64,000 bases of DNA. It comes from Tetramitus jugosus. Its lineage: Eukaryota > Heterolobosea > Eutetramitea > Acrasida > Vahlkampfiidae. Within the stretch, counting starts at the first letter, position 1. Each line of letters opens with the position of its first letter. The notes beneath the pieces are model-generated. The model ran no database searches and was not told where the DNA came from. It was given only the letters and a program-made list of their open reading frames with translations. This document shows positions 36,089 to 57,630 of the stretch, piece by piece. Both the position numbers and the translations under genes were made by a program. Where the stretch lies: contig OW569370.1 in assembly GCA_937625935.1 (NCBI GenBank), forward strand, positions 248,001 to 312,000, read 5' to 3'.

Positions 36089-36193
36089 TCCCATATAGTC
36101 TAGCTGGTTAGGATATCCGGCTTTCACTTCCAAGCTGAAAAGCTGAAATGCAAAAGTTCCCGGAAGACCCGGGTTCGAGTCCCGGTATGGGAG
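36089..36193 (+). tRNA. tRNA-Glu (anticodon UUC) with a 32-nt intron
   Basis: Acceptor arms TCCCATA (36089-36095) and TATGGGA (36186-36192) pair fully, discriminator G36193. The D region TAGTCTAGCTGGTTAGGA holds box A; the T arm CCGGG-TTCGAGT-CCCGG holds a perfect box B (GGTTCGAGTCC). Anticodon stem TCCGG (36116-36120) pairs with CCGGA (36160-36164). The loop is CTTTCA plus C159 with anticodon TTC at 36123-36125. The intron, 36127-36158, sits one base 3' of the anticodon, the canonical position for tRNA endonuclease. It holds TGAAA twice, each complementary to loop bases TTTCA, which could form the anticodon-intron pairing. Sequence matches eukaryotic tRNA-Glu (TCCC...GTCTAG.GGTTAGGAT). Confidence 0.95.
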
Positions 36194-55641: not shown

Positions 55642-57630
55642 TCAGTGCTCAAACAGATGTGGCCTGGTGGTGCTAGATTCATATGGACTGACCGGTACTT
55701 GAAATGGAAGCTTACGTTGGTTGGTTTGTGCGCTATCTGTCAGCAGGATGACTCCAACTTCGTAACTGCTCACCGATAGCTGATTGTTTTTCTTTTGTAA
55801 GCGACCAAGTGCCGCACCTGAAAAATTATGACTTCCTGCATACATCCACAGTGCGGAACCATTTGAATCACAGTATACAAAAATCTTGGAGTGAGCTAGA
55901 TATCCCTCTTGAGAAGCCTGACAACTCTTGTAATCACAAAGCAAGTGCTTTGGAAAATTGGGCGAGAAATAGGCATCTTTCCTCAAAATAATCATGCCAG
56001 CACCAAGAGTACCGAGCTTGGATCTTGCAACAGTTGTTTCAGATGGAAACACGATCTTCAATCCACTTTGAGTTTTGTTCGAAGGTACATGAATGAAGCA
56101 GGAAGTACCAATCTCACCGAGCCACTTCATATCTAAAGCTCCAATTGATGATGCCTGGAAGAAACAGGATGCTTGTGGAGATCTCTCGACCGTAGAAAAT
56201 ACACCCTGTTGTAAAACATCTCGAATTCGCATATGCCCATACTTTTTAAGATTTTCTCCCGAGTGATATCCAGGGACAGAGCATACCAATTGTGCTTTAG
56301 CACTTCTAAAATCATACTGGTCTAGCCATTTTGCAGGCAGACCAAGTGTTGCTATATTCCAAAAGTTCACCAACTCCTCACGAAAGTCACAATTCACTTG
56401 AGAATTCGATTTTCTCTTTGGAAAGTCTTGAACCCATATCACTTGTGTATAGGAGTGCCAGTCCACATGGCACATGTTTGCAGATGAGACAACCACACGT
56501 AAACAATTCGGAAAGGAGAGCAACCACAATTTTGAGTGCATGTTTGAATACTTTTGCGGTAGAGGTGGGTGGATTACCACCATTGGAGACTCACCGACCT
56601 GGAACATTGATCTGCCCTCTTCCTCGCTCTTTGAATTCTTATCCCAGTGCTTCACGAGAGTGACTGGTATCATTCGATTGGCCAAGCCAAACACCTCAGC
56701 AAAATAATCTAGGTCGAAAGAAAATGTGGAAATGAAGGCTGCTTCTAATCGATCTCGCTCAATGAGATCCCCTATTGATAATGTATCATTTTCTCCAGCT
56801 CGCTTCGACCCCACCAACCGATTCAAGAATATCTTCTCTCCATTGAATTTCATGCTAGAAGATTGGTTTTGATTGCTTGTGTCTGGTTCTTTCCCTTTGT
56901 TGATCACATTCTTTGATTCCGCTGTTGTTTCATGAGAGCTTGCTGATGACTGCAGGCTCAACTCAATCGCCTTCTTAATCTGTTGTTCCTCAGTCATCTC
57001 CAAATCATCGTCATCATCGTCTTGCATTTTCTTGTTGTTGCCCACAACGGCATCATCCATCATGCTACTTTTGCAATCTATATCCTCTTCATAGGACACT
57101 TTATCATTCCACAGCAGATACATCTTGCAACAATTCTCATCATTGACTCCCAAATCCAAATCACTCAACTTTTGATCATTGTCCAACAAAAAATTTCCTC
57201 GACTGACCAATCGCACTCTCTTGGTGACATATTGATCAGAAATTGTTCTTGAAGCTCTCATCTTCTGTCCAAAATGACTCAACACCAATTTTTTCAACTC
57301 AAGCTGAGTACAATTTGCCTGAGACACCAAAAACACCTTTGATCTGCGAGTGCTGCGCTCCTCTATTGTGATGCGCAAAGGACGATCATCACCATGATCA
57401 ACAAATGCATTGATCACGTGTTGATCAGCTTCATTGGAAAGCTTTTGTTCCTGCTGAGGAGCTTCTTCTTCGTCATCCGAGATCAGAATCACTTCTGACT
57501 GAGAAATAGAAGCTTTTTGCCTCTTGTTTCCACTTTCAGTATTGCGTGTGAAAAATGCATCCCTCTCTCTCTTCATATCTGATTCCTTTTTTTTGTTTGA
57601 ATGGAACGGAGTAACTGAGCGTTCCACCAT
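55642..57630 (-). CDS. TDP1: Tyrosyl-DNA phosphodiesterase 1 with SIM, ubiquitin-like and UIM segments (662 aa)
   Basis: Two HKD half-sites: MHSKLWLLSF with SSANMCHVDW (His about 365, Lys 367) and YLAHSKIFVY with AGSHNFSGAALG (His about 580, Lys 582), the TDP1 variant that lacks Asp. It removes topoisomerase-I peptides from DNA 3' ends. Ahead of the enzyme there is, in order, a SUMO-interaction-like motif EVILISDDEEE (about 46-56), a ubiquitin-like domain at about 85-175 (LRITIE...; ELKKLVLSHFG; RLVSRGNFLLDNDQKLSDLD), and a UIM-like helix EEQQIKKAIELSLQSS (about 214-229). The first ATG is at 57630; the frame continues 19 codons upstream to a TTG, so a missed exon cannot be excluded. Catalytic call is secure; head domains are by eye. 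Confidence 0.9.
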   Translation of the reverse strand: MVERSVTPFHSNKKKESDMKRERDAFFTRNTESGNKRQKASISQSEVILISDDEEEAPQQEQKLSNEADQHVINAFVDHGDDRPLRITIEERSTRRSKVFLVSQANCTQLELKKLVLSHFGQKMRASRTISDQYVTKRVRLVSRGNFLLDNDQKLSDLDLGVNDENCCKMYLLWNDKVSYEEDIDCKSSMMDDAVVGNNKKMQDDDDDDLEMTEEQQIKKAIELSLQSSASSHETTAESKNVINKGKEPDTSNQNQSSSMKFNGEKIFLNRLVGSKRAGENDTLSIGDLIERDRLEAAFISTFSFDLDYFAEVFGLANRMIPVTLVKHWDKNSKSEEEGRSMFQVGESPMVVIHPPLPQKYSNMHSKLWLLSFPNCLRVVVSSANMCHVDWHSYTQVIWVQDFPKRKSNSQVNCDFREELVNFWNIATLGLPAKWLDQYDFRSAKAQLVCSVPGYHSGENLKKYGHMRIRDVLQQGVFSTVERSPQASCFFQASSIGALDMKWLGEIGTSCFIHVPSNKTQSGLKIVFPSETTVARSKLGTLGAGMIILRKDAYFSPNFPKHLLCDYKSCQASQEGYLAHSKIFVYCDSNGSALWMYAGSHNFSGAALGRLQKKNNQLSVSSYEVGVILLTDSAQTNQRKLPFQVPVSPYESSTTRPHLFEH

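Follow-up and report, generated by a model that had tools for sequence, protein, structure and literature searches.

A TDP1-like phosphodiesterase of Tetramitus jugosus with predicted SUMO- and ubiquitin-type modules ahead of its catalytic domain

Once a topoisomerase crosslink has been marked for degradation, how tyrosyl-DNA phosphodiesterase 1 (TDP1) encounters it is an open question in the field, according to the available text of a review (PMC6895789), and the locus described here raises the question of whether a TDP1-like enzyme can carry the means of recognizing such tags in its own chain. The locus lies in a 64,000-nucleotide stretch of the Tetramitus jugosus genome (contig OW569370.1, positions 248,001 to 312,000; hereafter the window) and encodes a protein that we call P0001. 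An earlier note, made from the sequence alone, had described a SUMO-interacting motif (SIM), a ubiquitin-like domain (Ubl), and a ubiquitin-interacting motif (UIM) before intact HKD sites and had proposed that the enzyme reads SUMO and ubiquitin marks on trapped topoisomerase 1 (TOP1). All of the named segments were found ahead of both catalytic HxK sites, and the combination suggests that the enzyme itself connects to the protein-tagging system. The features of the gene, in order along the protein, are as follows.

55642..57630, minus strand: open frame of the TDP1-like protein P0001, 662 amino acids plus stop in a single exon, a 100% match to C27 of the organism's own genome
57559..57576, minus strand: M19 (MKRERD), the likely true start, in register with an MKR of the six closest homologues
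57463..57495, minus strand: SIM-like motif EVILISDDEEE, residues 46-56, recurring in relatives
57103..57381, minus strand: Ubl (predicted beta-grasp), residues 84-176, detected by Ubiquitin_4, PDB profile, AlphaFold model, and fold comparison
56947..56994, minus strand: UIM TEEQQIKKAIELSLQS, residues 213-228, detected by Pfam UIM (PF02809)
55645..56844, minus strand: TDP1 catalytic domain, residues 263-662
56530..56538, minus strand: first catalytic HxK, H365 and K367, with partner N385, invariant in a 17-row alignment
55885..55893, minus strand: second catalytic HxK, H580 and K582, with partners N602 and E624; N602 is invariant and K582 and E624 are nearly so in the 17 rows

The Tyr-DNA_phospho profile (PF06087) scored 247.5 bits on P0001 against a cut-off of 22 (Pfam E 3.2e-73), which places the protein in this family. 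The two motifs read HSK at residues 365-367, with N385, and HSK at residues 580-582, with N602, and E624 is present. The fifth residue after the catalytic lysine is S372 in the first motif and C587 in the second, not aspartate. The aspartate of the phospholipase D (PLD) motif is thus missing, as required by the definition of TDP1 as an enzyme with two HxK(x)nN motifs that lack it (PMC6895789, available text). In a fold search with the full P0001 model, the list of matches was taken up by chains of TDP1 and of further PLD-type proteins, and an NCBIfam scan gave no match. P0001 is most likely a divergent TDP1 paralogue with an intact PLD-type active site, which would hydrolyze 3'-phosphotyrosyl or related 3' DNA adducts.

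The frame is intact on the minus strand (57630..55642) and is uninterrupted from the upstream stop to its end, with no need for an intron. Its nearest named homologue is from Willaertia magna, and the homologues P0002 to P0004 are 41-49% identical to P0001. When P0001 was aligned with its six closest homologues, M19, K20, and R21 were invariant in all seven rows, and the proteins P0005, P0006, and P0007 start exactly at this MKR. Because of this invariance, M19 is probably the true start, and residues 1-18 would be a leader. The SIM, Ubl, and UIM all lie downstream of M19, and the head is unaffected by the corrected start.

The identification of residues 84-176 as a Ubl is made with modest confidence from several lines of evidence: Pfam, a PDB profile search, and the AlphaFold model. 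The Ubiquitin_4 profile (PF18036; cut-off, 22.8) gave the domain by itself 25.0 bits. Of its two matches in the genome, this locus was the better, at 24.4 bits. The whole protein scored 20.8 bits, below the cut-off, and the profile matches one of the four homologous Ubls. In the PDB profile search with this domain, Ubl proteins were the only matches (best 1v2y, E 0.021, and 8r7n_B, E 0.11). The fold search with the full model was occupied by PLD-type chains and did not probe the Ubl; therefore, the head was folded alone. The models of the Ubl have the beta-beta-alpha-beta-beta order and the ubiquitin fold, and the predicted local distance difference test (pLDDT) values of the AlphaFold block were 82-93, except for one loop at 67. 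A beta-grasp had been expected at 85-175, and the structure models predict one at about 85-176; the segment ending in DNDQKLSDLDLG, which had drawn attention to it, falls inside the domain. The nearest Foldseek match to the Ubl model was again 1v2y (E 0.024; root-mean-square deviation, 13.7). By both profile and Foldseek, the nearest solved Ubl is therefore that of SNRNP25, the 25-kDa protein of the U11/U12 small nuclear ribonucleoprotein (PDB 8r7n_B; mouse 1v2y by similarity), which, unlike P0001, is a part of the spliceosome and for which we know of no TDP1 link. An hhalign comparison of the Ubl with the ubiquitin, the SUMO, and the DDI1 Ubl that this genome encodes gave a weak result (probability, 7.5; score, 20.0) that was above 30 of 30 column shuffles (best, 13.9). 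The Ubls of P0001 to P0004 are homologous to one another (pairwise BLASTP, one against one, E 3e-22 to 7e-7). A search of the whole P0001 sequence for Gly-Gly found none, and the domain is for this reason not a conjugatable modifier.

The earlier note had named a lack of the head in all orthologues as a refuting condition, but homologues do carry it, in whole or in part: counting P0001 and its six closest homologues, the SIM pattern was present in the head of seven of seven, the UIM core pattern in five (P0004 and P0007 lacking it), and the Ubl in four. The SIM pattern, which asks for an aliphatic core and then for four or more acidic residues within a stretch of seven, was composed after the sequence had been seen, and the limits of the heads in all pattern counts were set by hand, with P0013 and P0015 to P0019 scanned at full length. 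Each of the seven heads had at least one match, the first of them 20-37 residues past the MKR, and 11 of all 19 proteins scanned had one. Shuffling the P0001 head also produced the pattern in 6% of cases, and 4 of the 32 ATG frames of at least 220 amino acids in the window contain it; a single match is therefore cheap, and the support lies in the recurrence. In the four Ubl-bearing proteins, P0001 to P0004, the match falls in one common alignment column. In P0005 to P0007, which have no Ubl, the aligner sets it after the Ubl gap, adjoining the UIM position, and there it may correspond to either of two SIM-like stretches. A second hydrophobic-acidic stretch ahead of the UIM position was seen by eye in P0002, P0003, and P0004, of which only P0002 agrees with the pattern, and it is weak or lost in P0001. 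EVILISDDEEE is thus a putative, and in our judgment probable, SUMO-binding motif.

When all six frames of the 26.3-Mb genome were searched, the UIM profile (PF02809; cut-off, 21) had eight matches, among which this locus ranked second at 23.1 bits; the whole P0001 protein scored 17.2 bits, below the cut-off. Whole-protein scores were likewise below the cut-off for P0003 (17.1), P0005 (14.3), and P0006 (19.0), and whole P0002, P0004, and P0007 gave no Pfam UIM match. The core pattern was found in 10 of the 19 proteins scanned, one of which, P0012, looked false by eye. Three other genomic UIM matches fall in open reading frames that resemble ubiquitin-system proteins by eye, namely, a UAS-UIM-UBX-like protein (L019), a thioredoxin-UIM-UBA-UBX-like protein (L020), and an RBR ligase (L021). 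In the second of these, located on C37 of the organism's own genome, the thioredoxin, UIM, UBA-like, and UBX-like parts are seen by eye in a single frame.

The head motifs might instead be chance matches in an acidic, low-complexity N terminus. When the P0001 head was shuffled, the SIM and UIM core patterns each turned up in about 5-6% of cases, and another frame in the window, of 1184 amino acids, loosely matches both patterns. The recurrence of the SIM in all seven proteins and of the UIM in five argues against this explanation, as does a Ubl that is seen by Pfam, PDB profile, and model and whose profile comparison exceeded every shuffle. On the strength of the recurrence, the genome rank of the UIM, and the Ubl profile against its shuffles, chance has been mostly rejected and is considered very improbable.

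In the tree, the four proteins with a Ubl group together as a single clade (support, 99/98; 100/99 in a larger tree), and P0005, P0006, and P0007 from Willaertia, all without a Ubl, form a weaker one (85/86). The simplest reading of this distribution is that a SIM/UIM head is older and that the Ubl would have been acquired once. Parts of the head occur farther away as well. P0008 from Polysphondylium resembles P0001 in having a UIM before the catalytic domain (21.5 bits, Pfam) together with SIM matches, and P0010 and P0011 from Gonapodya resemble it in the UIM but differ in that the UIM is double (31.3 and 31.8 bits, Pfam) and in showing no SIM pattern match. Unlike P0001, none of these three proteins had a Ubl match in the Pfam scan; P0009 lay outside this domain scan of homologues. 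An alignment search in which 7995 candidates were scored found at least five further, more distant TDP1-like proteins (P0015 to P0019). Among these, P0018, a TDP1-like protein of Aureococcus, has an N terminus that resembles by eye a RanBP2/NZF-type zinc finger, which is a ubiquitin-binding type, and Pfam gave no match to it up to E 1. A head-only search with residues 91-275 of P0003 recovered only P0003 itself among 2449 candidates; because it missed the known homologous Ubls of P0001, P0002, and P0004, this search is too insensitive to judge how rare the head is. In the open-licence PubMed Central (PMC) literature, we found no paper linking tyrosyl-DNA phosphodiesterase with a UIM, and in the available texts searched there, a Ubl, SIM, and UIM before a TDP1 domain were not found to be reported. 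The earlier view that the three-part head is new thus holds for the Ubl and its combination with a SIM and a UIM ahead of the TDP1 domain; SIM and UIM matches as such occur in other TDP1-like proteins, both of them in Polysphondylium and UIMs in Gonapodya.

The Ubl and the UIM within one head might also serve each other. According to this alternative, the Ubl would cover in cis its own UIM (or the SIM) and so hold the head shut, to be opened by a ubiquitin or SUMO chain that the target carries. The two parts are spaced by about 37 residues, and the UIM residues are helical in both models. Aligned with the ubiquitin that this genome encodes, the four Ubls have V, V, V, and I where ubiquitin has I44, a residue of the usual UIM-binding patch, so that part of this patch is kept. 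However, both models predict the UIM helix with low confidence (pLDDT block means, 41-61), and P0004 has a Ubl but no UIM match. We regard such an autoinhibitory clamp as unlikely.

The gene in the window is not the only TDP1 gene of the organism, and the picture of a single TDP1 was incomplete in this respect. The genome profile search found two PF06087 loci, and the second is as follows.

C38:23143-24483 of the organism's own genome (locus L002:1276-3093): second TDP1 gene, encoding protein P0014, 605 amino acids

P0014 gave no UIM or Ubl match with Pfam and no SIM match at the pattern threshold; one stretch looks SIM-like by eye and lies below this threshold. The tree separates C38, together with human TDP1, P0012, P0015, and Blastomyces, from the window clade, P0009, Polysphondylium, and Gonapodya (95/95; 97/99 in a second tree), with the UIM-matching P0015 placed on the human side. 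Human TDP1 (PF06087; PDB 1mu7, 1nop, and 1jy1) thus differs from the window protein in its place in the tree. A union of C38 with the window clade was rejected by the approximately unbiased test (p-AU 0.0028), for a group defined after the tree was seen. The trees hold few taxa and several long branches, and their sequences were collected by searches with P0001 and its relatives; the finding that P0001 does not group with human TDP1 as an orthologue is provisional accordingly. Because C38 groups with human TDP1, the window gene is provisionally read as a paralogue whose substrate need not be TOP1, and TOP1, which the earlier note had proposed, is a less secure substrate for the window enzyme.

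These results bear on a further alternative, in which P0001 would act on another substrate (for instance, RNA or 3' adducts of another kind, or in a task outside the nucleus), the head would target it there, and C38 would do the TOP1 work. The two PF06087 loci, the position of C38 on the side of human TDP1, and the rejected union with the window clade all favor it. Plants likewise have two TDP1 genes that differ in their domains, with TDP1alpha termed canonical in the available text of PMC7762302; in contrast, the available text of PMC10547559 states that TDP1 is always a single orthologue in the set examined. We consider this division of labor rather unlikely. The second plant paralogue, TDP1beta, is like P0001 in its altered architecture and unlike it in that the extra domain is HIRAN and separates one HKD motif from the other; neither the word ubiquitin nor the word UIM appears in the available main text of that paper (PMC7762302).

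The pathway in which the head would operate has been outlined elsewhere: TOP1 crosslinks are modified by SUMO, then ubiquitylated by a SUMO-targeted ubiquitin ligase (STUbL), and then handed to the proteasome, and the TDPs often require prior proteolysis (PMC9019546, available text). The review of the TDP1 N-terminal domain calls it unclear whether SUMO or ubiquitin carried by the TOP1 complex plays a part (PMC6895789, available text). The T. jugosus genome encodes SUMO (L008:1450-1734; C terminus, QTGGF), polyubiquitin, one TOP1 match, an SprT-like protein, and DDI1 (L025), which has a Ubl and a protease domain. A six-frame genome search, which ignores introns, gave no match to a WLM (Wss1-type) protease. 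The SprT-like metalloprotease (C50, L026) has an acidic N terminus with a SIM-like VQIVSDDEEEEEE and is GCNA/ACRC-like by eye. In addition, a complete ubiquitin ending in LRLRGG is fused in frame to a RAD51-type recombinase (417 amino acids; C14:228368, L009:1501-2754), a fusion that is unusual to our knowledge. Its RAD51 part is the best PF08423 match in the genome (409.6 bits), and a second strong match lies at C34 (407.9 bits). Within the window, one further feature was recorded.

36089-36193, plus strand: tRNA (Rfam, 55.2 bits; none found by ARAGORN as run), perhaps carrying an intron because it spans 105 bases against a 71-position model

With these components at hand, we propose that P0001 is a TDP1 paralogue that SUMO and ubiquitin marks bring to crosslinks and whose Ubl, which cannot be conjugated, would serve for docking or for self-regulation, and we assign this reading a probability of about 0.5. 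The SUMO-then-ubiquitin pathway would mark the crosslink, and the head would bring the enzyme there, the SIM binding SUMO on the marked crosslink and the UIM binding ubiquitin chains. The Ubl would dock the enzyme to the proteasome or a Cdc48 adaptor or, alternatively, would fold back on the UIM until displaced by ubiquitin. The PLD-type active site would then hydrolyze the 3'-phosphotyrosyl (or related 3') DNA adduct. The analysis shows the domain anatomy, a head conserved within part of the lineage, two TDP1 genes, and a genome that encodes SUMO, ubiquitin, and one TOP1; we infer the binding, recruitment, docking, and substrate of P0001. Of the proposal that the enzyme reads marks on trapped TOP1, the anatomy is supported, with the Ubl and UIM passing the cut-offs in genome searches, not in whole-protein searches, and with a recurring SIM; mark reading on TOP1 itself is not directly supported. 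The Ubl as such is not a reader of marks and more likely docks to something.

A different use of the same head is conceivable, in which the SIM would promote SUMOylation of P0001, the Ubl and UIM would tune its stability, and no substrate mark would be read. Human TDP1 offers a precedent, since its SUMOylation at K111, within an N-terminal domain described as structurally unresolved, stimulates recruitment and its level is controlled by UCHL3 deubiquitylation; the words SIM and UIM are absent from the available text (PMC6895789). However, when P0001 is read against a loose SUMO consensus (hydrophobic-K-x-D/E), the sole match, MKRE at residue 19, falls on the probable start, and separate binding motifs suit binding in trans at least equally. 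A head devoted to the modification and turnover of the enzyme itself is distinctly unlikely.

The proposed recruitment by SUMO and ubiquitin marks has relatives among known crosslink-repair proteins. TDP2 has an unrelated catalytic fold, of the EEP family, and binding modules other than those of P0001. It is like P0001 in being a phosphodiesterase for DNA-protein crosslinks with its own ubiquitin (UBA) and SUMO (split-SIM) binders (PMC8656403, available text), the activity and the binding of P0001 being predicted from its active-site residues and motifs. DDI1/Ddi1 likewise joins a Ubl and ubiquitin binding in a crosslink-repair protein, and human DDI1/2 bind the proteasome through the UBL (PMC7782752, available text); unlike P0001, which would cut the remaining tyrosyl-DNA bond, it is a protease that removes the protein. 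A bolder form of the proposal, which we regard as rather unlikely, is that one lineage has made of a TDP1 paralogue a self-contained crosslink-repair hub, in which the SIM and UIM would read the SUMO and ubiquitin code on the trapped protein, the Ubl would tie the phosphodiesterase to the debulking proteasome or Cdc48, and proteolysis and hydrolysis would become one handover. Such a head would be TDP1's counterpart of the TDP2 head, reached independently.

If a single TDP1-like chain combines modules of the SUMO and ubiquitin types, the question of how TDP1 meets a tagged crosslink would become directly testable with a small recombinant head. If the reading is true, both families of tyrosyl-DNA phosphodiesterases, TDP1 with a SIM, Ubl, and UIM and TDP2 with a UBA and split-SIM, would have reached the same code.
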